Assembly: GCA_027493615.1 (NCBI GenBank)
Contig: JAOSKK010000023.1
Coordinates: 558,001 to 622,000, forward strand
DNA length: 64,000 nt
Reading direction: 5' to 3'
From: Verrucomicrobiota bacterium
GTDB lineage: Bacteria; Verrucomicrobiota; Verrucomicrobiia; Limisphaerales; J093
The position numbers were made by a program, and so were the translations under genes. Below, in pieces: positions 22,984-37,787 of the stretch. The notes below the pieces were generated by a model that worked only from the letters and a program-made list of their open reading frames with translations, ran no database searches and was not told the DNA's origin. Within the stretch, counting starts at the first letter, position 1, and each line of letters begins with the position of its first letter.

Positions 22984-23393
22984 AAATGGGGGAAGGGACG
23001 TGGTCATCTTGGATCGGCTCAGGGCCATGAACGCTCCGCGCCGGGTCGGGGGGAACCGGCCTGCAGGTGATCGGGGACCTGGCCTCCCGGTTGTCGGCCG
23101 GGTGCCCTCCCCGGGCGGTTCATGGGCTGGCAGGCGGGGCCGCCCGGCGGCGCAACCGATCTGACTAATCTTATACATTAACAATCCCGAAAACTGCAGC
23201 CCGCCCGTCCTGCGGACTTGTCGGACCGCCCCCGGCTCCCTAAAAGAGCTTCGCTTCTTTTGTTGTGAGAGGCGCAAATTCGGTGGGGTCCTTCTCACGC
23301 CGTGGATCCGACCCAACGGCCACCGGGGGCGCGGCGGGTCCGGGTTGTCGTTGACGCCGGCGCGGGGGCAGGGCTCACTTTCGGGGTTTTTGC

Positions 23394-24048
23394 ATGTCGG
23401 ACATTTTTCCGAAATGGACCAATAAGCTGCCCGGGTACGTGATCCTCGGCGGCGCGCTGTTGGGCACCGCGGTTGTGGCCGGCACGTGGTACTACTTCAC
23501 CCCCGAAATACACCCGCGTCGGGTACCAGCCCCTCCAGCCGGTCAGCTTCTCCCACCACATCCACGTCGAGCAGCTCGGCATGGATTGCCGCTATTGCCA
23601 CAACGGCGTCGAGTCCTCCTACCACTCCAACATCCCGTCGAGCACCTCCTGCATGAACTGCCACAACCAGGTGCTGAAGGATGATCCCAAGCTCGCGCTC
23701 GTGCGCGAAAGCGCTGCCACCGGCCGGCCCATCCCCTGGGTCTGGATTCACAAGACGCCCGACTACGTCTACTTCAATCACGCCGTCCACGTGAACCGCG
23801 GCATCAGTTGTGTCGAGTGCCACGGGCAGATCAACCTGATGGACGAGGTGCACCACGCCCAACCCCTCAGCATGACGTTCTGCCTCGACTGTCACCGGCA
23901 GCCCGAGGCCTTCCTCCGCCCGCCCGAGCAGGTCTACAACCTCAACTGGAAGCCGGCCGACCCCACCCGCCAGCTCGCCGACGGCCGCCGCTTCCTCGAG
24001 GAATGGAAGGTCGAACGGCTCGAGCATTGCTCCGCCTGCCACCGATGA
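23394..24048 (+). CDS. actA: alternative complex III subunit A, pentahaem cytochrome c
   Basis: First gene of the operon. ActA passes electrons from the quinol-oxidising complex towards cytochrome c or an oxidase, on the periplasmic side. The N-terminus has a membrane anchor (LPGYVILGGALLGTAVVAGT, WYY). After an indel near 23510 the soluble part carries exactly five CxxCH haem sites: CRYCH, CMNCH, CVECH, CLDCH and CSACH, the number typical of ActA. Other conserved parts are QPVSFSHHIHVEQLGMDC, WVWIHKTPDYVYFNHAVHV and LEEWKVERLEHCSACHR at the end. The stop overlaps the actB ATG. Confidence 0.92.
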
Positions 24049-27000
24049 AGACCGTCCCCCTCCCTGCCCGACCCCGGAGACCGGCCCGCCGTACTGGCGC
24101 AGCCTGGAGCAACTGGCCGACACCCCCGGCTTCCGGGAGTGGCTCGAGCGGGAATTTCCCGACGGCGCCAGCGAGCTCAACGACCCGGTCTCCCGCCGGC
24201 ACTTCGTCCAGATCATGTCCGCCTCCTTCCTCCTGATGGGAGTCGGACTCACCACCGGCTGTCGGCGGCCCCAGGAGACGATCCTTCCCTTCAGCAAGCT
24301 GCCGCCGGGCTACACCCACGGCGTGCCCCAGTACTTCGCCACGGCCATGCCTCTCCGCGGCCACGCCGTGCCCGTGCTGGTCAAGTCCTACGACGGCCGG
24401 CCGGTCAAAATCGAAGGCAACCCGGACCACCCGCTCAACCGGCGCGGTGACGGCGAGCCCGCCCGGCCTCATGGCGGTACGGATGCCCTCACCCAGGCCT
24501 CGCTGCTCAACCTGTACGACCCCGACCGCGCCCACCGCTTCACCCATCAACGCGAGAACGTCGCGCGGGAAAAGGCGCTCGACGCCCTCGCCGCCGCCGG
24601 TCAGGCCGCCCGCGCCAACCACGGCCAGGGCCTCTGTTTCCTCACCGGCCGCAACCTCTCCCCTTCCGTCATCCGCCTCAGCCGCCAACTGCGCGAGATC
24701 TTCCCCAGCGCCCGCGGGTTCATCCACGAACCGGTGGACTTCGACGTGCTCCGCGAGGCGGCCACCCTGGCTTACGGGACTCCCGTCCGGCCCACGTATC
24801 ACCTCGACCAGGCGCAGCGGATCCTGGCGCTGGACTGTGACTTTCTGGGGACCGAAGAGGACGCCTGGCATTGGACCCGCGGCTTTGCGCGGGGCCGCAA
24901 GCTTGCCTCCGCCCAGGCCGGCATGAGCCGCCTCTACGCGGTCGAGGGCCTGATGACGCTGACCGGCACCAACGCCGACCATCGGCTGCGTCTGCCTTCG
25001 GGCCAGGTATTACCGTTTGTGGCCGCGCTGCTCGTCGAGTTGCTGAAGCGAAACCCGGCAGCCGCCGTGCCCGCCGCGGCCGAATTCGACGCCGTGCTCG
25101 CACCCCTCGCCGCGGCGCTTCCGGCCGAGGCCCGGGCCTGGGCCAACGCCTGTCTGGAGGACCTGCTCGCGCATCCGGGCCGGGCCGTGGTCCTGACGGG
25201 CTACCGCCAACCACTGGCCGTCCACGTGCTGGCGCAGGCGCTGAACTTCCATCTGGGTGCCCTCGGCAAGACGGTGCGGCTGGTTCCCGAACCGGACCTG
25301 GGTGCGGGCACGCTGGCGGACCTGGCCCGGGCCCTCCAGGCCGGCGAGGTCGAAACGCTCGTCATCCTGGGTGGCAATCCGGCCTTCACGGCCCCGGCGG
25401 ATCTCGAGTGGCCCGCCGCCCAGCGCCGTGCCAAGACGGTGATCCGCCTGGGCTTTCACGAGGACGAGACCTTCGCCTTCAGCGACTGGCACCTCCCGAT
25501 GGCGCACTACCTCGAGTCGTGGGGTGACGCCCGGACGCTTGATGGGACGCTGGTGCCCATCCAGCCGCTCATCGAGCCTCTGTTCGGCGGATTGACCGAC
25601 CTCGAGGTCCTTGCCCGCATCGGTGGACTGCCGGTCACCCGGCCCTACGACATCGTCCGGGAGACCTTCCGCGGTGCGCACGGCGAAGGCTTCGAGGAAG
25701 CCTGGAAGCGCTTTCTGCACCAGGGTTATCTGGCGGACAGCGCCCCGGCGGAAGCCTCGGCGGCAGCACTCCAGTGGCCGGCCATCCGGACGGCCGTCCA
25801 GGCGGCGACACCTCTCGCGGCGCCGGGCGCCCAGAGCCTCGAGGTGGTCTTTGTCCGCGACGCCAAGTTGGACGACGGCCGGTTCAACAACAACGGCTGG
25901 CTCCAGGAACTGCCTGAGCCGGTCACCAAACTGACCTGGGACAACGCGTTTCTGGTCAGCCCGGCCACGGCCAGGAACCTGGGTTTCTACCGGGTCGACC
26001 AGGGCTACGTGGGGAGCGCGACGGCCACCAAGACCCGCGTGCCCGTGGCCCGTCTCACCCTGGGCGGGCGGACGGTCGAAGGCCCCGTCTGGGTGCAGCC
26101 GGGCATGGCGGACCACGTCGTGGGCCTGACGCTGGGCTACGGCCGGGTGCGCACCGGCCGCGTGGGTCGCGGCGCCGGTTACAACGCCTATGCGGTCCGC
26201 GCCTCGAGCGCGCTCCACCTCGCGGCCGGGGGCCAACTGGCGGCGGCGGGCCGGGATTACGAGCTGGCCACGACCCAAAATCACTGGGCGATGATGGGCC
26301 GCCCGATCATCCGCGAAGCGACGCTCGCCGAATACGAGAAGAACCCGCGGTTTGCGCGGGCGATGGACACACCGGAGCCGAAGGCCGGCATGCAGCCGCT
26401 CTATCCCAACCCGCTCGACAAGCTGGCCGCGACCGCGCACCACCAGTGGGCGATGTCGATCGACCTCAACGGGTGTGTGGGGTGCTCGGCGTGCGTGGTT
26501 GCCTGCCAGAGCGAGAACAGCATCCCCATCGTCGGCAAGGAGCAAGTCAGCCGGAACCGCGAGATGCACTGGATCCGGCTGGACCGTTACTACGTCGGGG
26601 GCGAGGACCAGCCGCAGGTGGTGCAGCAGCCGATGCTCTGCCAGCACTGCGAGGCGGCCCCCTGCGAGAGCGTCTGCCCGGTGAACGCCACCGTGCACGA
26701 CCACGAAGGCCTCAACGTGATGGCCTACAACCGGTGTGTGGGCACCCGGTACTGCTCGAACAACTGCCCCTACAAGGTCCGCCGCTTCAATTTCTTCGAC
26801 TACAACCGCCGCCCCTGGACCAGCTCTACCGCAGCCCGTTGGTCTCCTTCAACGACGGCCAGTGGGAAATGAAGCGCTGGTTCAAGAACCCGGACCGCGG
26901 CAGCAAAGCTCAGGACGAATGGGACCTGCTCAAGCTGGCCCGCAACCCGGACGTCTCCGTGCGCATGCGCGGCGTGATGGAGAAATGCACGTTCTGTGTC

Positions 27001-27387
27001 CAGCGCATCGAACAGGGCAAGATCGCCCAGAAGGTCAAGGCCGGCGCCTCCGGCGATGTCGTCGTGCCCGATGGCGTCATCCGACCCGCCTGCCAGCAGG
27101 CCTGCCCCGCCGATGCCATCACCTTCGGCAACCTGAAGGACCCGGACAGCGAGGTGAGCCGGGCCCGGGCGCACGAGCGCACCTATCTTGTGCTCGATTA
27201 CCTGATGACCAAGCCCCGGGTCACCTATCTGGCCCGCGTCCGCAATCCGAACCCGAGCATGCCGGACCCGTACGAAACGCCGCTCAGCACGAAGGAATTC
27301 CTCGACCACGGCGGTTTGCTGCACGGTCACCCGGCCGATGCCCACGCCGCTGACAGCGCTCACGGCGCCGCGAAAGGAGCTCACTGA
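24045..27387 (+). CDS. actB: alternative complex III subunit B, molybdopterin-enzyme-like plus iron-sulfur domain
   Basis: The largest ActA-F subunit, about 1110 codons. Indels near 24065 and 26810 divide it. The N-terminal part has LNDPVSRRHFVQIMSASFLL, a twin-arginine-type region. A long domain resembling bis-MGD oxidoreductases follows (KSYDGRPVKIEGNPDHPLNR, TLVILGGNPAFTAPAD, FSDWHLPMAHYLESWGDA); in characterised ActB this domain lacks the Mo cofactor. The C-terminal ferredoxin-like domain has the cluster cysteines CVGCSACVVACQSEN, CQHCEAAPCESVCPVNA, CVGTRYCSNNCPYKVRRF and CTFCVQRIEQGK with ACQQACPADAITFG. Its start overlaps actA by four bases. Confidence 0.92.
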
Positions 27388-28810
27388 TGGCTGCCCCGGC
27401 CAGACTCGAGGTGCCCTGTCCGGTGCCGCCTCCGGAACTCCAGCGTGTCCCGCTGGTAGCCAACAACCGGTCGCTGGGCTGGATCTCCGGACGCTGTGGC
27501 GGGCGTGGCGGAGGGCAAGACTCCCGCGTGGTGGTGGCCGGCATTCCTGATCAGCGTGGTGATGATGTGCCTGTGCTTTGCCATGATCACCTACCTGATG
27601 TCCACGGGCGTGGGCGTCTGGGGGCTCGGGCACCCGGTCATGTGGGGCTGGGCCATCGTCAACTTCGTCTGGTGGATCGGCATCGGCCATGCCGGCACGC
27701 TCATCTCCGCCATCCTCTTCCTGCTCCGCCAGCGCTGGCGCACAGGAGTGAACCGCGCCGCCGAGGCCATGACCATCTTCGCCGTCATGTGCGCCGGCAT
27801 CTTCCCGGTCATCCACGTCGGGCGCATCTGGCTGGCCTGGTGGCTGTTCCCCATCCCGAACGCCAACAGCATCTGGCCGCAGTTCCGTTCCCCGCTCATG
27901 TGGGACGTGTTCGCGGTCTCGACTTACTTCACGGTCTCGGTCCTGTTTTTGGTACATGGGCCTGATCCCGGATCTGGCCGTGATGCGGGACCGGGCGCGC
28001 ACGCGGCTGCGCAAGTTCGGCTACGGGCTGTTCGCCCTGGGCTGGACCGGCTCCAACCGGCACTGGAGCAACTACGAGAAGGCCTATCTCATCCTCGCCG
28101 GCCTGAGCACGCCGCTTGTCCTCTCCGTCCACTCCATTGTGTCCCTGGACTTCGCCGTCTCCCAGTTGCCGGGCTGGCACACCACCATCTTCCCGCCCTA
28201 CTTCGTCGCCGGCGCCATCTTCTCGGGCTTCGGGATGGTGCTGACCCTGCTCATTCCCATCCGGAAGCTGTGCGGGCTCGAGGACCTGATCACGATGCGG
28301 CACGTGGATTTGATGTGCAAGGTGACGCTGGCGACGGGCTCGATCGTGGGCTATGCCTACGGCATGGAGGTGTTCATTGCCTGGTACAGTGGCAATCCCT
28401 ACGAGCGCTATGCCTTCTGGAACCGCGCCTTCGGCCCCTATTGGTGGAGCTATTGGATCATGATCGCCTGCAACGTGGTGATCCCGCAGCTCTTCTGGTT
28501 CAAGAAGGTCCGCCACCATCTCGTGGCCGTCTGGATCATCTCCATCCTGGTGAACATCGGGATGTGGTTCGAACGGTTTGTGATCGTGGTCACCACGCTG
28601 GCCCGTGAGTTCCTGCCCGCCAACTGGGGCTATTACACGCCCACCTGGGTGGACATCTGCACGTACCTTGGTACGTTCGGACTTTTCTTCACCTTCTTCC
28701 TGCTCTTTCTGCGCTTCCTCCCCATCATTGCCATTGCGGAAGTGAAAGGGGTCACGCCGCAGGCCGACCCGCATCACCCGCTGGGCGGCGCCAAGAAAGG
28801 AGGGCATTGA
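27387..28810 (+). CDS. actC: alternative complex III subunit C, NrfD/PsrC-like quinol-binding membrane protein
   Basis: Integral membrane subunit thought to hold a quinol site and possibly a proton path. An AAGGAG precedes the ATG, which shares one base with the actB stop. The N-terminus is [20 protein letters not shown]. Indels near 27500 and 27950 shift the frame twice. Conserved parts include [90 protein letters not shown] and [17 protein letters not shown], all typical of ActC with about ten membrane helices. ActF is a paralogue in the same operon. Confidence 0.9.
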
Positions 28811-28813
28811 ACA

Positions 28814-29351
28814 ATGGCTGAGCCCGCCAAACCCTACGGCCTGCTGGCCGAGTTTGAAACGCCGGCGGATGTCATGCATGCCGCCGAACGCGTGCGCGAC
28901 GCCGGGTTCCGGCGCTGGGATGTCTTCACGCCCTACCCCGTGCATGGCATGGACAAGGCCATGGGATTGAAGAACTCCATGGTCGGCTGGTTCTCGTTCC
29001 TCGGCGGCGTGGCGGGTTACACGACCGGCATGCTGCTCATCTGGTGGATGAACCGCTTCGACTACCCGATCCCCGTCGGCGGCAAACCGCTCTTCAGCCC
29101 CTTCTCGGCTTTCCCCCTCCTACGAGCTCACCATCCTGTTCGGCGCCTTCGGTGCCCTCCTCGGGATGCTGTTTCTGAACCGCCTGCCACGGCTCCATCA
29201 TCCGCTCCTCAAACACCGCCGCTTCGCGCTCGCCTCCCACGACCGCTTCTTCCTTGTGATCGAGACCAACGACCCGAAGTACCGGGACACCGAAACCCGG
29301 CAACTTCTCGAGTCCGCCGGCAGCCGGCGCATTGAAATGGTGGAGGACTGA
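28814..29351 (+). CDS. actD: alternative complex III subunit D (DUF3341)
   Basis: A small membrane subunit with two helices. It begins PYGLLAEFETPADVMHAAER, then RRWDVFTPYPVHGMDKAMGL, the DUF3341 signature, and SMVGWFSFLGGVAGYTTGML for the first helix. An indel near 29115 precedes YELTILFGAFGALLGMLFLN (second helix) and a soluble end HDRFFLVIETNDPKY with RRIEMVED. Length after correction is about 179 residues, as expected. It lies three bases after actC and two before actE. Confidence 0.9.
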
Positions 29352-29353
29352 CC

Positions 29354-30011
29354 ATGCGCTACTTCCTGCTCGGCTTCCTCCTGCTTGGTTTGGTTGTGGT
29401 CAGTGTGGCCGGTTTCCGGGGTGGCCTCAGCCGGCGCCCGCCCATCGAACTGTTTCCGGACATGGATCGGCAGGCCAAGCTGCGCCCGCAATCCGCCCAC
29501 GGGTTCTTCCCGGACGGTCTCAGCTCGCGGCTGCATCCGGACCAGACGATCCCGCGGAGCCTGCCGGTGCTGGTGGCGGGCACGCCGGTGCATCCCTTCG
29601 AGGATCACCCGTTCAACACGGGCTACGAACCCGGGACGACGAACTTCGTCCAGCACAGCCCCGTACCCGTCTCCGAGACGCTGCTGGCGCGCGGCCGGGA
29701 GCGGTTTGCCATCCACTGTCAACCCTGCCACGGCGCGGCGGGGGGACGGCAAAGGGCCGACCACCAAGTACGGCATGGTGGTGATCGGGAATCTGCATGA
29801 CCCGCGCATCGTCCAGCAACCCGATGGCGAGATCTTCCACACCATCAGTCTGGGCCGGAACCTCATGCAGGGTTACGGCGCGAACATTGCCGCCGCGGAT
29901 CGTTGGGCCATCCTGGCCTATGTCCGTGCCCTGCAACTCAGCCACCTGGCCACGCTCGAAGAGGTGCCCGAAGGCCTGCGAGCCACCCCTGAAGTGATGC
30001 CTTGCCTATGA
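29354..30011 (+). CDS. actE: alternative complex III subunit E, monohaem cytochrome c
   Basis: A membrane-anchored cytochrome c of the complex. The N-terminal helix is MRYFLLGFLLLGLVVVSVAG, followed by RRPPIELFPDMDRQ, FFPDGLSSRLHPDQTIPR and FNTGYEPGTTNFVQ. The haem site is CQPCH (ERFAIHCQPCHGAAG). An indel in a G run near 29745 precedes GDGKGPTTKYGMVV, then DGEIFHTISLGRNLMQGYG, whose methionine can be the distal ligand, and ADRWAILAYVRALQLS. The stop overlaps the actF ATG by four bases. Confidence 0.9.
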
Positions 30012-31292
30012 GTGCCCTCTCCGATCTCCGCGCCGCCGCCGAACGTCCGCTGGACCTTTCCGCTGGCGCCGGGTGCCCAACTATCTCATCGGGATCGGCG
30101 CGGCGGGCGCGCTGCTTGGGTTGGTCCTTGACCGCGTCCAGTTCGGGTACTCCTGGCTGATAGCGTTCATGTTCTTCCTCAGCCTGACGCTCGGGGCCTT
30201 GTTCCTCGTGCTCGTGCATCACCTCTTTGATGCGGGCTGGTCGGTGCCCATCCGGCGGTTCTGCGAGCACATCGCTTCGCTGCTGTTTCCCTGGATGGCT
30301 CTGGCTTTTGTCCCCATCGCCCTGCTCGCGCCCCGGTTGTACGGCTGGATGCAGGTGCAGGATCCGCATGCCGACCATGCGTTGCACGCCAAGCTCCCAC
30401 TGTTCACCAAGCCGGGTTTCTACCTCGTGGCGCTGGCCTGCTTTGCCATCTGGTGGTGGCTCTCACACAGCCTCCGGCGGCTCTCCCTGGCCCAGGACCG
30501 CGACGGAGCGGCCCACCACACCTATGCCATGCGACGCGTCGCGTGCCTCGGCATCTTTCTGTTCGCCATCACGCTGACCCTGGCCGCCGTGCTTTGGATG
30601 AAGGGGCTGATGTACGAGTGGTTCTCCACCATGTACGGCGTGTATTACTTCGCCGGCAGTGTGTGGGTGACATTGGGCACCGTGTACCTGATCACCATGG
30701 TCCTCAAGCGCAACGGCACCCTCGAGCCGGTGCTCCACGAGCACCAGTTCTACTTCCTCGGATCGCTGCTGTTCGCCTTTACCGTCTTCTACGCCTACAT
30801 CCACTTCTCCCAGTACTTCATCATCTGGAACGCGAACATGCCCGAGGAGACGTTCTGGTACGTCGTGCGCGAGAAAGGCACGTGGTGGTACGTCGGCATG
30901 GTCATCATCTTCGGCCACTTCTTCCTTCCCTTCCTGGCCCTGCTCCGGATCGACCTCAAGCTGACGTTTGCCTGGATGATTCCTCTCTGCATCTGGACGT
31001 GGCTCATGCATTACGTGGACCTGGCGTTCAACATCCATCCCTACCGGCACACCGGCGGCTACCCCTTCCAATGGGCCTGGCTGGACCTCGCCTGCATCGC
31101 GCTCATTGCCGGCATTCTGACCAAGCAGTTCCTGAACAAGTTCGGGGTCACCCGCCGTATCCCCTCAAGGACCCGCGCCTCTGCGAGGCCATGGGCCACG
31201 TGCACTTTCATGCTTCCGCGATTTCAGGAGGTGAGATTGACGAGACCGACGAACTGGCCGACGGGCCGGAAGTGGCGGGAGGTGTGCGATGA
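30008..31292 (+). CDS. actF: alternative complex III subunit F, membrane protein
   Basis: Second large membrane subunit, related to ActC. It begins MSALSDLRAAAERPLDLS. After an indel near 30065 it continues RRVPNYLIGIGAAGALLGLV. Conserved stretches are LVLVHHLFDAGWSVPIRRFC, MKGLMYEWFSTMYGVYYFAG, YIHFSQYFIIWNANMPEETF, FGHFFLPFLALLRIDLKL and HYVDLAFNIHPY. An indel near 31160 shifts to the true end (DPRLCEAMGHVHFHASAISG). About ten helices are expected. It overlaps the small gene that follows by four bases. Confidence 0.9.
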
Positions 31293-31666
31293 AGTGGTGG
31301 ACATGCTGTCAGGGGATGGATCGGGCGCGGGTTGCCGCCTGGTTCCTGGGGATTGCCGGCACCTTCCTGCTCGTGGGCGGCCTCACCTGGTGGGTCGTCC
31401 AGCGCACCCGGCCGCCCGGCGTGGACACTGTCCGCGCCGCTCTCCGTTACCAGAACCTCGCGGAACTCCGCGCCGCCGACCATGCGGCCCTGACCACCGC
31501 GGGTATCATCGACGCCAACAAGGGTATCTACCGGATTCCCATCACCAACGCCGTCGCGTTGCTCCTGCGGCTTTGGCAGGACCCCGCCGCCGGCCGGGCT
31601 GACCTCCTCGCCCGCGTTGAGAAAGCCACCGCCAAACCGCCGGAGGTCCCGAGCGAGTACGAATAG
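31289..31666 (+). CDS. small membrane protein of the alternative complex III operon, function unknown
   Basis: A 125-residue protein with one N-terminal membrane helix (VAAWFLGIAGTFLLVGGLTW, WVV) and a soluble tail: VDTVRAALRYQNLAELRAAD, ANKGIYRIPITNAVALLLRL and VEKATAKPPEVPSEYE. No cysteine pair or haem motif occurs in the tail, so it is not a redox carrier. It overlaps actF (ATGA) and precedes the oxidase-like genes, so it is probably part of the complex or its assembly. The IYRIPITNA element looks conserved-motif-like. I do not recognise a named family. Confidence 0.7.
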   Translation: MKWWTCCQGMDRARVAAWFLGIAGTFLLVGGLTWWVVQRTRPPGVDTVRAALRYQNLAELRAADHAALTTAGIIDANKGIYRIPITNAVALLLRLWQDPAAGRADLLARVEKATAKPPEVPSEYE

Positions 31667-31700
31667 CCCGGGGCGCCCCCGCCACCGGTCCCGCGCCACC

Positions 31701-33184
31701 ATGAGTTCTCCCGCCTCCGCCCCGACCCCGGCGCCGTGCCACCGCCGGTCGCCGCGAGCCTGGCGCCTGCAGCACCGGCGGACTTGGACCGGTCGTGTCG
31801 CTGGCCGGTGCTGGTGCTGGGCGGACTGAGCGCGGGTTGGCTGGTCTTTGCCGCCGTGCTGGGCGTCCTGGCCGCCATCAAGCTGCACGCGCCCGGGATG
31901 CTGGCGAACATCGAGTGGCTCACGTACGGCCGGGTGCAGCCCGCGGCGTGGAACGCGTTGGTGTTCGGTTTCGGTGCCCTGGCCGGTCTGGCGCTGGCCC
32001 TCTGGCTGATGGTGCGGTTGAGCGGTGTGCCGCTGGCGGGAACGGGCACCATCCTGTTCGGCGCGGCCGTCTGGCAGGTCGGCCTCAAGCTGGGGGTGTT
32101 GGGGGTCCTCGCCGGCGACAGCACGGGCATCGAGGGCCTGGAACTGCCGCGGTACGCGTCGCCGCTCCTGCTGGCGGGGTATCTCCTGATCGCGCCCTGG
32201 GCCTTGGTCGTTTTCGGCCGCCGTCAACGTCGCGAGAGCTACATCTCCCAATGGTACCTGGTCACCGCCCTGCTCGTCTTCCCCTGGTGTTTCGCGAGCG
32301 GTTACGTGCTGACGTCGTTTCTGCCACTGCGCGGGGTGTTGCAGGCCGCGGCGCAAGCCTGGTATCTGCAGCAACTCTGGGTCTTGTGGTTCGGCAGCCT
32401 CACCCTTGCGGCCCTGTTCTACTTCCTGCCGAAGCTGACCGGGGCGGCGGTCCCCAGCCGCAGCCTGGCGTTGTTTGGCTTCTGGACCTTCGTGGCCTTC
32501 GGCGGTCTGGGCGGGTTGACCCGCTACGCCGGTGGTCCTTTCCCGGCCTGGATGCTGAGCCTGGCGGTGGTGGGCAACGTGCTGACCCTGTTCGCGATCT
32601 ATGGCGTCGGCGCCAATCTGCTGCCGTCCCTGCGCGCGGCCCTGTCGCGGCTTTCAGGCAACGTCGTGCTCTGGTTTCTGGGCTTCTCCCTGCTGGCCTG
32701 GCTCACGGCCGGCGTGCTGACCGCCCTGAACTCGCTGGCGACCGTGCGGCATCTGACTCATTTCACGCTGGTCACACCAGGGCTGGATCAGCTCGCGTTC
32801 CTGGGCGGCTTCGGCGTGGCGGCGCTGGGGGGCCTGTACGTGGTCGTGCCCTGCTTGCTGGGCCGTGACTGGCCGTCGCGATTCCTGGCGACACTGCATT
32901 TCGGCTGTGCGGCGGGGGCGGTTGTGCTGCTGGCGGTGGCCTTTCTGGTGGGCGGCTTGGTGCATGGAGCCGCGCTCAACAACACGGACGTGGCCTTTCT
33001 GACCGTGGCAAAGCGCTACCTGCCGTTCGCCTCGACCGGCACGCTGGCGCAACTGCTCTGGCTGGTCGGCAGCGGAGCCTTTGCGGTGAACTTCCTCTGG
33101 CTGCTTGGGGCGTGTGCCCGCACGATTTGCGTGCCGGCAGCCCGGGCGTTGGTGGAGCCGCTGCCGGCGGAGGGGAAGGCGTGA
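31701..33184 (+). CDS. CcoN-like haem-copper oxidase subunit I lacking all six metal-ligand histidines
   Basis: About 480 residues with roughly 12 membrane helices and clear CcoN order: IEWLTYGRVQPAAWNALVFG, ESYISQWYLVTALLVFPW, PLRGVLQAAAQAWYLQQLW, LAALFYFLPKLTGAAVPSRS and GGLTRYAGGPFPAWMLSL. Counting from the GTG at 31736, every ligand is replaced. The haem b His of LHTNA is Ala71, the CuB His of the GHN motif is Gln212, the CuB HH pair is Arg263-Tyr264, and the haem His-x-His is Leu350-Asp-Gln352. The frame is continuous across all sites, so indels do not explain this. It should not bind haem or copper. The start is uncertain: an ATG at 31701 needs an indel near 31733, while the GTG at 31736 does not. 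It sits after ActF and overlaps the CcoO-like gene, suggesting a structural role with the complex. Confidence 0.75.
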
Positions 33185-34098
33185 AACACGGACCCCTGCT
33201 CTTCCTCGGCGTGTTCGCGGCGTTCTTCGCCTCGTGGGTGGCTGGCGTGTTGGCGCCTCACCTTCAGATCGGTGGACAGTCGCTGGTCCAGATCGACGAC
33301 CTGGGGATACAGTATCCGCTGGATCGGACTGGCGAAGCCAAGCAAGGCGCCCAGGTCTACCGGGCCCAAGGTTGCCATTACTGCCACACCCAGCAGGTGC
33401 TTCAGGAACCCCTGCTCTCGCGGCTCACCTTGACCGACGCCGGCACCAACATCACCGACGCCGTCGCCGCCTTGCGCAAGGTGCGGCGTGACCTCGATGC
33501 CGACGCCGCCACGGAGCTGGTCAGGCATCCGCCCCAGGTGATCCTGGCTCATGCCGGCGCCTCCGCCACCGACCAGGCCACCCGCCTCCTGACCAACGCC
33601 GGTGCCCGGGTCGAATCCACGATTGCCAACCTCGGCCCCGATCTCCGCCGCGGCTGGGGCACCCGCCGCACCGTCTCGCGCGATTACCTCCGCGACCAAC
33701 CCGTGTTCCTGGGCCAGATCCGGCTTGGACCCGACCTGGCGAATCTCGGCGCCCGGCAGACCAACACCACCTGGCTGTTGCGGAAGCTCTACAACGCGCG
33801 GATCGACCTGCCCGGCTCGACCATGCCGCGTTACCCCTACCTCTTTACCGAACGCCGCCTGCGCCCCGGCCAGGCGCCCTCGCCCGATGCGCTGGCGCTC
33901 CCGTCCGAATTCGCGCCGCCCGCCGGGATCGAGATCATCCCCACCCGCGAGGCGCGGCAGCTTGTCGCGTACCTGCTGAGCCTCCGCTCCGACGCCCTGT
34001 TCTACGAGGTCTTCCCCCCACCCACAGACCAATGCCGTGACAAGACCGGTCGAGACCACGAACGCCCCGTCCGCCCAAACCTCGTCCCTCGACCTTGA
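33181..34098 (+). CDS. CcoO-like monohaem cytochrome c with an inserted L7/L12-like domain
   Basis: Partner of the CcoN-like protein; the GTG start overlaps its stop (GTGA). The N-terminus has one membrane anchor (LLFLGVFAAFFASWVAGVLA), then the haem site QGCHYCHTQQ at residues 64-72. The CcoO landmarks RGWGTRRTVSRDYLRDQPV, RLGPDLANLG and the methionine segment STMPRYPYLF are kept, so this subunit can still hold haem c. Between the haem site and RGWG is an extra stretch, residues about 82-146: TDAVAALRKVRRDLDADAAT, ELVRHPPQVIL and LLTNAGARVE. It resembles the C-terminal domain of ribosomal L7/L12. The last 20 residues look random and the TGA falls in a heptamer repeat, so the true C-terminus may differ. 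Confidence 0.8.
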   Translation: MKHGPLLFLGVFAAFFASWVAGVLAPHLQIGGQSLVQIDDLGIQYPLDRTGEAKQGAQVYRAQGCHYCHTQQVLQEPLLSRLTLTDAGTNITDAVAALRKVRRDLDADAATELVRHPPQVILAHAGASATDQATRLLTNAGARVESTIANLGPDLRRGWGTRRTVSRDYLRDQPVFLGQIRLGPDLANLGARQTNTTWLLRKLYNARIDLPGSTMPRYPYLFTERRLRPGQAPSPDALALPSEFAPPAGIEIIPTREARQLVAYLLSLRSDALFYEVFPPPTDQCRDKTGRDHERPVRPNLVPRP

Positions 34099-34134
34099 CC
34101 CTTCGCCCTTCGCCCTTCGCCCTTCGCCCTTCGC
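34093..34134 (+). repeat. heptanucleotide tandem repeat (CCTTCGC)
   Basis: Six consecutive 7-base units: one CCTTGAC then five CCTTCGC. The first unit supplies the TGA stop of the CcoO-like gene. The array lies in the 48-base space before the next ATG. It is comparable in unit length to the array at 38863-38932. Confidence 0.8.
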
Positions 34135-34146
34135 CTTTGCGTCCCC

Positions 34147-34827
34147 ATGAAGCCGGTGCCCTCTGCACGCTCCCCAGTCGCTGCCCGCCCCGCCCGCGCG
34201 GCGGGCAACGCCACCGGCGCGCTCGGAGCCCCTGCTCTTGATGGGGCCCCGCCCGCCCTCGGCACCGGCGCCACCACGCCGCTCTGGCTGGTGGGCCTGT
34301 TTGGCGTGATGCTCTACTGGGCCACCCTGTACCTGGATCGGAACGGTGGCGGGTTCAATCCGCTCGTTTTCAACCAGGGGGAACTGCTGGCGGATCTCGA
34401 GGCGCGGGTGCCGCGTTCGGAGGCCGATGCCCTCCTGGCGCAGGGGCGCAGGGTCTACACCGTTTACTGCTCGGCGTGTCACCAGCCCAACGGCCGGGGC
34501 ACTCCCAACCAATTCCCGCCCCTGGCGGGCTCGGACTGGGTCCTGACAGAAGGCCCAAATCGAATCATCCGGATCGTCCTCAACGGCCTGCAAGGACCCA
34601 TCACCGTCAACGGCAACCAGTACAACAACGTGATGCTCCCCTGGCGTGACCAACTCTCGGACGAGGACATTGCGGCCGTCGTGACCTTCATCCGGGGCAA
34701 TGCCGAGTGGGGCAACAACGCCGGTCCCGCCACGCCCGCCCAGGTCAAGGCCATCCGCGAGGCCACCGCCAGCCGCAGCACGTCCTGGACCGCCCAGGAG
34801 TTGCTGGCGATCCCGCTCAAGGACTGA
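34147..34827 (+). CDS. membrane-anchored monohaem cytochrome c
   Basis: A 226-residue protein in an intact frame, last gene of the respiratory operon. After an Ala/Pro-rich cytoplasmic stretch one helix (TPLWLVGLFGVMLYWATLYL) anchors it. Next come DRNGGGFNPLVFNQGELL and the cytochrome c domain with YTVYCSACHQPNGRGTP (haem site CSACH), FPPLAGSDWVL, QYNNVMLPWRDQLSDEDIAA (methionine probably the second ligand) and VVTFIRGNAEWGNN. The layout resembles a single-haem CcoP or ActE-type protein. It probably accepts electrons from the complex and delivers them to an oxidase encoded elsewhere. Confidence 0.85.
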   Translation: MKPVPSARSPVAARPARAAGNATGALGAPALDGAPPALGTGATTPLWLVGLFGVMLYWATLYLDRNGGGFNPLVFNQGELLADLEARVPRSEADALLAQGRRVYTVYCSACHQPNGRGTPNQFPPLAGSDWVLTEGPNRIIRIVLNGLQGPITVNGNQYNNVMLPWRDQLSDEDIAAVVTFIRGNAEWGNNAGPATPAQVKAIREATASRSTSWTAQELLAIPLKD

Positions 34828-34944
34828 TTTTCTCGCACCGACGTCGCGAGAGAATGCGGACGCTGGCGCGAGTTCCGCCCCGCCCGGCAGACGCAGGGCG
34901 TATGGAGGTTGCCCGCGGGTTCCATCCCGGCGCACAATCCCGAC

Positions 34945-37787
34945 GTGAAACCACCGGTCTCCTGGCGTTTGTTCCTGCTCCTGCTCGCGGCTTTCCCCGC
35001 CTTCACCGCCGACACCCTGGACCTCGCCGGAGAGTGGCGGTTGCGACTCGACCCCGAAGACGCCGGCCTCGCCGCCCGCTGGCCCGCCGCGCCACTCACC
35101 ACGGACAGTCGCATCCAACTCCCGAACACCACCGACCTCGCCGGGTTCGGTTTCCCGCTCGACACGAACACCATGTTCCACGCGGCGCCCTACCCCGTGA
35201 CCACCCGTTTCCCCGGGGTCAGGGAATCCGCGCGCGCGGATGAACACGGTTATCTCGTGCGCCGCCACCTCTTCGTCGGACCCGCCTGGTACGAGCGCGA
35301 CATCGAGATCCCGCCGGCCTGGCAGGGGCGACCCGTCGCGCTCCGCCTCGAACGCGCGCTCTGGAAGACCGAGGTGTGGATCGACGGCCAGCCCGCCGGT
35401 GCGTGCGACAGCCTGGTGGCCGAGCACCGACACGACCTGGGCCCGCTCACCCCGGGTCGCCACCGACTCACCCTGCGCGTGGACAATCGCCTCATCCACA
35501 ACCTCTCGACCGTCACCCACGCCTACGGCCCGGAAACCCAGTCCCGTTGGAACGGCGTGGTCGGCACGCTCACCCTCGAGGCCGCCCCGCCGGTCGCCTT
35601 TCGCTCTGTGACCGTCTACCCGGCCGCCGACCGCCGCAGCGCTCGGGTCGTCTGGGGGCTGAACAACTCCAGCGGCGAAGCTCGCAAAGTGCCGGTGAAA
35701 CTCCAGTTGAGCCGCGAGCGCGAAACGCCCGTGCTCGCCACCGCCTCCTGCGTCGCCACGTATCCGCCGGGACCAAACACGGGCGAAGTGACACTGGATC
35801 TGGCCGAACCGATCGAGGCCTGGGACGAATTCCATCCGGTGCGCTACCGGGTCCAGGCCCACCTCGAGGGGCCGGATGGGGTGGCGAGCGAGACCAGCGT
35901 CACTTTCGGGTTCCGTCAGGTTGAACGCGCCGGGAAGGAACTGCGCCTGAACGGTCGCCCTCTGTTCCTCCGCGGCACCCTCGATTGTGCCGTCTATCCC
36001 CGCACCGGGCATCCGCCCATGACCGTCCCGGAGTGGGAACGGGTCCTCGGGGTCGTCAAGGAGTACGGTTTCAATCATGTGCGGTTTCACACGTGGTGTC
36101 CTCCCGACGCCGCGTTCGAGGCGGCCGATCGCCTCGGTGTCTACCTCCAACCCGAGACCGCCGCCTGGGTGGACGATTGGGGACTCGAAACCGTCACCCG
36201 CCCCCCGCCATCGGGCGAGACCCCGCGATCACCGCCTTTCTGCGCGCGGAACTGCGGCGGATGTCCGAGGCGTACGGGCATCACCCGTCCTTTCTGCTGT
36301 GCGCCATCGGCAACGAGTTCGGCTTGCGCGGCACGGACTGGGAGCAGGTCAACGCGCTGGTCGAAGAGATCAAGGCCTTCGATCCGCGCCGGCTCTACAC
36401 CGGGTGCGGGGCGCGCAAGAACCTGCCGGCGGACGATTTCTGGTTCACGCATCACACCAGCACCGGCACCCGGGGCGTGGGCCCGGCTCATCCGGACTGG
36501 GATTTCGCCCCGGCCCTCGACGCCTCGCCCGTCCCGCTGATCGCCCACGAGACCGGCCAACGCCCCGTCTTCCCGGACTACGACCGGTTGCTGCCGAAGT
36601 TCACCGGGCCGCTCCTGCCGCTGAATCTCGAACGTCACCGGCGTTCGCTCGTCGCCAACGGGCTCGAGTCGCAGGTTCCCGATTTCGTGCGGGCTTCGGC
36701 GCGGTTCCAGCTCACGCAGTACAAGGCGGAGCACGAGGCCATGCTGCGCACGCGGGGTTACGCCGGCTACCAACTGCTCATGCTCAACGACTTTACCGGC
36801 CAGAGCGAGGCGCTCGTCGGCATCCTCGACCCGTTCTGGGAGCCGAAGGGCGTGGTCAGCGCCGCCGAGGTGCGCGCCTGGAACGCGCCGACGGTTCTGC
36901 TGGCGCGGTTTGCCAGGTACGTCTGGCTCGCCAACGAAACGCTCCGCGTGCGGTTCGAGATTGCGCACTTCGGAGCCGAAGACCTGCCCGCCGGGCCGGT
37001 GCAGTGGTCGCTCGGTCCCCGCGAGGGCAGCATTCTGATGCGCGGTGATCTCGCGGCGGGCCATGTGGCCGCCGGCAGGGTGACGGACCTCGGCGCGATT
37101 GCGGTGCCGCTCGCCGCCGTGCGTGAACCCGCGTCGCTGGCGTTGTCGGTGACGTTCGGTGGCGTTGGCAATCAGTGGCCGCTCTGGGTCTACCCGGCCT
37201 TGCCCGACGAACCCGAACCGCCCGGGGTGCTGGTGACCGCCGCACTCGATGAGGCCGCGCTGGCTGCGTTGGAACAGGGCGGTCGGGTCCTGCTGCTGGC
37301 CCACGGCCTCAAGAACCCCCATGCCGCCCGGACAGGTTTCGAATCCGTCTACTGGTCTGCCGGTTGGTGGGGAAACCGGTTCTCCTCGCTCGGTCTGCTG
37401 TGCGATCCGCAGCACCCGGCGCTCGCCGCCTTTCCCAGTGACGGTGTCAGCGACTGGCAATGGCGCGATCTCTGCGCGGGCGCGACCACGCTGGCGCTTG
37501 ACGAGGTGCCGGAGGGGTTCCGGCCCATCGTGCAACCGGTCCCGGATTTCCACTTCAACACGCGGCTCGCGCAGGTGTTCGAAGTCCGGGTCGGGCGCGG
37601 TGCGTTGCTCGTTTGCGGTTACGACCTGACCGGCCAGCTCGACGCCCGCCCCGCCGCGCGCCAGTTCCGTCGCAGCCTGTGGCGCTACGTGGCCAGTGCC
37701 GCTTTCCGTCCTGACGCGGTGGTCTCCGTCGATTGGCTCCGGCGGTACTGTGTCTCCGCGGATGAGTCAAACCGCCCCACCCCGTAG
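34945..37787 (+). CDS. secreted glycoside hydrolase family 2 enzyme
   Basis: About 950 residues. The GTG start gives a signal peptide (MKPPVSWRLFLLLLAAFPAF, TA). An N-terminal jelly-roll follows (DLAGEWRLRLDPEDAG, WYERDIEIPPAWQGRPVAL, RLERALWKTEVWIDGQPAGA), then an immunoglobulin-like module and the TIM barrel (LRLNGRPLFLRGTLDC, YGFNHVRFHTWCPPDAAFEA, LGVYLQPE). After an indel near 36215 the acid/base region is LLCAIGNEFGLRG (Glu in GNEF) and the probable nucleophile lies in PLIAHETGQ. The arrangement is that of GH2 beta-galactosidase or glucuronidase-like enzymes; substrate is not evident. The TAG stop lies in a palindromic intergenic repeat shared with apbE. Confidence 0.8.

Follow-up and report, generated by a model that had tools for sequence, protein, structure and literature searches.

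A CcoN-like subunit without haem and copper ligands in alternative complex III operons of Verrucomicrobiota

An alternative complex III (ACIII) operon of a Verrucomicrobiota bacterium encodes, downstream of actF, a homologue of CcoN, the catalytic subunit of C-type (cbb3) oxidases, from which all six histidine ligands of haem and copper are absent. The gene, here called ccoN', lies in the window, i.e., the whole stretch of 64,000 nucleotides that was analysed (contig JAOSKK010000023.1, positions 558,001 to 622,000); homologues were compared among genomes within Verrucomicrobiota. Subunit I of the haem-copper oxidases is defined by its ligands, and the family described here, which is widespread and under selection, does without them.

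The ccoN' gene and its operon

The open reading frame at 31736–33184 matches the COX1 profile PF00115 (1.4e-27, residues 31–432), and P. stutzeri CcoN (3mk7) aligns with its product at 3e-16; its score with the ccoN model TIGR00780 is 87 bits, with a cut-off of 583. In the alignment with 3mk7 the haem and CuB ligands are changed from His60 to Ala71, His207 to Gln212, His257 to Thr262, His258 to Arg263, His345 to Leu350 and His347 to Gln352. The original prediction that the six ligands are replaced in a CcoN-like protein is thus confirmed (0/6 present), with one correction: the CuB pair, given earlier as Arg263/Tyr264, was one column off and is Thr262/Arg263. The active-site Tyr251 of P. stutzeri CcoN corresponds to Gly256, and Thr215, Tyr237 and Ser240, which we take to be K-channel residues of CcoN, correspond to Gly220, Arg242 and Ala245. 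Judged from its sequence, the window protein is a CcoN homologue that would no longer work as an oxidase. AlphaFold2, applied to the window protein and one relative, gave a pLDDT of 42, and the model was not used.

The actA-F core genes are contiguous at the locus, and the ActD, NrfD and Fer4 domain matches (Table 1) bear out the earlier placement of the gene within an alternative complex III operon. The complete operon, best read in a related metagenome-assembled genome (MAG; locus L038), is actA-actB-actC-actD-actE-actF-small ORF-ccoN'-ccoO'-cytochrome c, and this order is found at essentially all loci, class-wide. The start of ccoO' overlaps the stop of ccoN' (GTGA, 33181). The small ORF has no Pfam match and occurs at almost every locus, whether the CcoN there is intact or ligandless.

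Table 1. Features of the ACIII operon in the window
Feature	Position	Strand	Description and evidence
actA	23473..24048	+	Multihaem cytochrome c; cytochrome c7/QrcA-like matches, L038 operon profile; 5' part lost, 1-nt indel at 23504
actB	24215..27387	+	Fe-S/molybdopterin-like; Pfam Fer4/Molybdopterin; indels at 25536/25562 and 26815; intact in L038
actC	27393..28810	+	NrfD-like quinol-binding subunit; PF03916 6e-13, L038; indels at 27488 and 27950
actD	28814..29350	+	PF11821 ActD 4e-37; indel at 29117; end approximate
actE	29354..30011	+	Mono-haem cytochrome c; L038 profile, weak Cytochrome_CBB3; indels at 29745 and 29989; end approximate
actF	30012..31288	+	L038 homologue; indels at 30061 and 31146; limits approximate
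Small ORF	31289..31666	+	Membrane-anchored; between actF and ccoN'
ccoN'	31701..33184	+	CcoN-like subunit with none of the haem/CuB ligands; frame open from the GTG at 31736
ccoO'	33181..34098	+	CcoO/FixO-like membrane-anchored mono-haem c; PF02433 1.9e-12, TIGR00781
Cytochrome c	34147..34827	+	Membrane-anchored, CcoP-like, CSACH; PF00034 2.5e-14, TIGR00782

The L038 operon lies on a contig of an independent MAG of the same genus (JABTUJ010000016.1), which encodes a 93% identical protein in the same ligandless state. The two sequences differ by no indel between 31730 and 34019 and by 18 indels, nearly all of 1–2 nt and some of them in the act genes, in the rest of the operon (23300–34140); the act genes appear broken only because of these. 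One nucleotide is missing after 31729 in the window, and the likely true ATG at 31701 is therefore out of frame. The earlier statement that indels do not explain the ligand loss is supported by the indel-free gene of L038 with the same residues, and a frameshift artefact is ruled out by this comparison. Downstream, at 34909–37787, a beta-galactosidase-like gene (NF049890) is split by a frameshift near 36000, which is probably another assembly indel.

Distribution and history of the ligandless state

A CcoN homologue is present in 52 of 58 relatives, and 77 distinct ligandless and 21 intact sequences from the ACIII operon slot were compared. The ligandless homologues keep zero to three of the six ligands, the equivalent of Tyr251 is never Tyr, and the low-spin haem b His pair is broken in 75; conservation of the ligandless state across relatives in the same operon position, as originally proposed, is borne out by these 77 proteins. 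Their signatures include HNSQRYH, QSGSREQ, AAGVNQQ, AHSSRRW/ANTSRRW, QQGRHQQ, HHGQHFI, SESSHFV and more. The HNSQRYH form (L145, L165; genomes G070, G224) has kept both low-spin haem b His with the active site gone, and from its sequence it is a possible partial stage, possibly with one haem.

In the window's order, 47 aligned sequences spanning dozens of family-level groups are ligandless and three are intact (HHYHHHH; G047, G048, and G051). The intact gene of G047 and G048 occupies the same slot, behind actF. G051 (L040, L069) has a ligandless ACIII operon plus an intact ccoN-ccoO-cytochrome c copy. Elsewhere in the class, the slot is filled by intact genes in one genome set and by several ligandless kinds in others. 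Since intact relatives occupy the same slot, a working oxidase is likely ancestral, and the sequences suggest that the ancestor was probably an ACIII-linked oxidase of the cbb3 type. The original prediction had counted intact homologues in the slot against itself; 21 of them, with all His, do exist, and the finding nevertheless stands, as they likely represent the ancestral state, followed by repeated loss.

The minimum number of state changes is two on the CcoN tree, five on the CcoO tree and eight on the ActB+C+F tree; if regain is excluded, the last tree has eleven ligandless groups (counted from the tree). The ActB+C+F tree does not allow the ligandless operons to form a single clade (AU p 2.4e-41). 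Most ligandless sequences do cluster in the CcoN trees, but we do not read this as one origin, given the long branches and the result from the ActB+C+F tree; the long ligandless branches of CcoN probably attract one another. L162 (AAGVNQQ; L102 in one tree) is nested among intact sequences in every class-wide CcoN tree. Exchange of ccoN-ccoO between operons (e.g., L170) is a possible other cause of the conflict between trees, and some apparently repeated losses could stem from a paralogue that arose early and was later exchanged within operons. As read from these sequence trees, ligand loss is recurrent, and its count depends on the tree.

Proposed role and alternatives

The haem c partners of CcoN' retain their cofactor motifs. 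The window ccoO' product is a CcoO family member with CHYCH and a Met motif (STMPRYP), and CxxCH is present in all CcoO' and all cytochromes c recovered from ligandless operons. In cbb3 oxidases the anchor helix of CcoO packs on CcoN; this N-terminal helix is kept by CcoO' in 73 of 74 ligandless operons. About a dozen ligandless operons encode a CcoO' without the axial Met, and the case for a uniform electron wire is weaker for it; the motif pattern used overlooked the Met in two sequences that have it. CxxCH is kept and the axial Met lost in L050, L174, L175, L179, L127, L153, L170, and L171, and in several CcoO' a Cys replaces the Met (STCAP, SKCPS, STCPP).

Most of the ligandless genomes encode other oxidases. 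The window's genome carries a fused cbb3-type subunit with all ligands kept (contig C39) and an A-type subunit (contig C1), so it does not depend on ccoN' for O2 reduction. By our count, another strong haem-copper oxidase is encoded in 45 of the 46 ligandless genomes tested; in G006, the remaining one, no other haem-copper oxidase was found. The sole haem-copper oxidase found in G047 and G058 is their intact ACIII-linked CcoN. The operon runs directly into coxA, coxC, and further cox genes in L175, L176, L177, and L179, and no oxidase gene was seen downstream of most operons of the window's order.

It is reasonably probable that CcoN' is a haem-free membrane scaffold which holds haem c subunits to ACIII. 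By descent it is the subunit that carried out catalysis in a C-type (cbb3-like) oxidase, and that oxidase would already have been encoded alongside ACIII and probably attached to it. With haem b, haem b3 and CuB gone, and its route for proton uptake lost as well, it would have become a cofactor-free integral-membrane scaffold. CcoN' would keep CcoO' and the cytochrome c encoded after it in place on ACIII, at the electron exit, and electrons from ActA/ActE would pass through the haems of CcoO' and cytochrome c to separate oxidases. The acceptor may be the aa3 oxidase next in the operon in several lineages, and elsewhere an oxidase encoded at another locus. We infer one complex with ACIII, this electron route, and a CcoN' without bound haem. 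In the broader formulation, to which we give about an even chance, an oxidase catalytic subunit has recurrently been stripped of its metal centres and turned into a permanent structural subunit of ACIII, giving a haem-free "pseudo-cbb3" module that wires ACIII to other oxidases. The earlier suggestion that the fold was kept for another job is in part sustained: the fold persists without cofactors, it belongs with ACIII, and scaffolding or docking fits the retained haem c partners.

An assembly or maturation factor, acting as chaperone or stator either for CcoO'/cytochrome c or for the aa3 oxidase linked to it, with no permanent place in ACIII, is an unlikely but not negligible alternative. It would be compatible with an operon shared with ACIII, and with cox genes in some lineages, and the missing cofactors speak neither for nor against it; however, the same gene in intact relatives is, by sequence, an oxidase subunit of the complex, and CcoO' has kept its anchor helix.

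It is improbable that ccoN' is a relic on its way out, a dead oxidase decaying as a pseudogene and kept transiently by its place in the operon. The branches are long, conservation is far below that of intact homologues, and dN/dS reaches 0.38 in one pair. Between the window and L038, dN/dS is 0.11 for ccoN', 0.12 for ccoO', 0.08 for cytochrome c and 0.07 for actF; the range for ccoN' is 0.06–0.38 in other ligandless pairs and 0.06–0.14 in intact pairs. The gene evolves faster than intact ccoN and the constraint on it is weaker, but the value of about 0.1 in the window pair agrees with the purifying selection that had been predicted for it. The ligandless set has lost conservation at the ligands, the surrounding pocket, Arg57, and the T215/Y237/S240 positions, and still conserves WLTYGR, GDxTGxExxE-P, W-N, and GGPxPAW. 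From the alignment, the conserved positions appear to be structural, and many would lie in loops and helix ends facing the periplasm, where CcoO lies. Against decay also stand the recovered sequences, which are long open frames without stops, the invariant structural motifs, the haem motifs kept in the partner genes, and the ligandless state shared by 47 sequences in dozens of family-level groups, which is hence old. The age of the ligandless state and the dN/dS values largely dispose of a decaying pseudogene.

It is very improbable that CcoN' serves ACIII as a channel for protons, ions or quinone. Conserved Arg66, Arg94, Glu136, and Lys233 would suit it, but the intact oxidase conserves these residues at least as well, and they therefore predate the loss. 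Neither the proton channel nor the quinone channel offered in the original prediction is supported; against the proton channel, the oxidase K-channel positions are also lost, with no new conserved polar set or buried charge pattern.

Continued binding of haem through other ligands, or reduction of O2 or NO, has hardly any probability. Given the two genomes with the HNSQRYH form (L094/L100), some members of the family may bind a single haem, but the low-spin pair is broken in the other 75 proteins, Tyr251 is kept in none of the 77, and no column offers alternative His, Cys or Met. In any one column of the 77 ligandless proteins His reaches at most 73%, Cys 51% and Met 48%, and the two columns richest in His (H388 and H51 in the window protein) show His at least as often in intact relatives. 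There is no substitute ligand set, because no new common His, Cys or Met column exists, and replacement of the His by other metal ligands is ruled out by this survey. An artefact of sequencing or assembly is practically inconceivable, since despite the many 1–2 nt indels across the operon the independent MAG shows the same ligand replacements in a gene without an indel and the ligandless state recurs in dozens of genomes, some of them single-contig.

Meaning and relation to known systems

A selected ligandless family in the slot of intact relatives shows that the protein has a role separable from O2 chemistry, and intact and ligandless relatives are natural before/after pairs for the study of electron handover from ACIII to oxidases. 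Annotation based on homology will label such genes as oxidases. If the recurrent transition is true, one bacterial class has a previously unrecognised form of ACIII. No haem-copper oxidase subunit without ligands was found in the open-access literature searched.

Verrucomicrobial methanotrophs have been described as carrying an ACIII-adjacent cbb3 oxidase, which has been tied to high O2 affinity (PMC6688271; PMC8498564). Four genomes of one genus (G099, G111, G129, and G209; 2.2–2.5 Mb, three or four pmoA copies each) all carry the gene, which in G099, G111, and G129 has the signature SESSHFV; their gene content seems to match Methylacidiphilum. The other PF00115 genes of G099 are A-type, B-type and one NorB-like. 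In pmo-bearing Verrucomicrobiae (L177, G099:C1:383000–400000; also L136 and L180) a ligandless CcoN lies between ACIII and an aa3 oxidase operon. On gene sequence, O2 reduction seems beyond the "cbb3 oxidase" reported next to ACIII in verrucomicrobial methanotrophs, and, if the pmo-bearing genomes are as they seem, that enzyme is without every catalytic ligand but one or two His. No expression data for the gene were found in the methanotroph literature searched. A cbb3 oxidase next to ACIII has been reported from both verrucomicrobial methanotrophs and Opitutaceae (Refojo 2010, as cited in PMC8498564; PMC6688271). Its operon arrangement is the one found here, and it belongs to the same gene family by search; in these sources it is taken for a working C-type oxidase, whereas the pmo-bearing genomes tested here carry the ligandless form.

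CcoN of C-type (cbb3) oxidases and ccoN' share homology over about 400 residues, the gene order N-O-cytochrome c, and the GRxxP, PK, and PxW motifs; ccoN' differs in lacking the haem b, b3, and CuB ligands, the active-site Tyr, and the K-channel positions. Supercomplexes of ACIII with an aa3 oxidase are known in Flavobacterium johnsoniae and Rhodothermus marinus (PMC8552683), and in F. johnsoniae ACIII makes contact through oxidase subunit III (PMC8361435). ACIII is likewise coupled to an oxidase there, as the adjacent cox genes of some operons here would have it, but no CcoN-like subunit has been described in these supercomplexes (PMC8552683). The NrfD-like ActC/ActF (PMC8076601) are similarly cofactor-free integral membrane subunits of a redox complex; unlike ccoN', they are not derived from haem-copper oxidases, and the metal centres of ccoN' have been lost secondarily and repeatedly.
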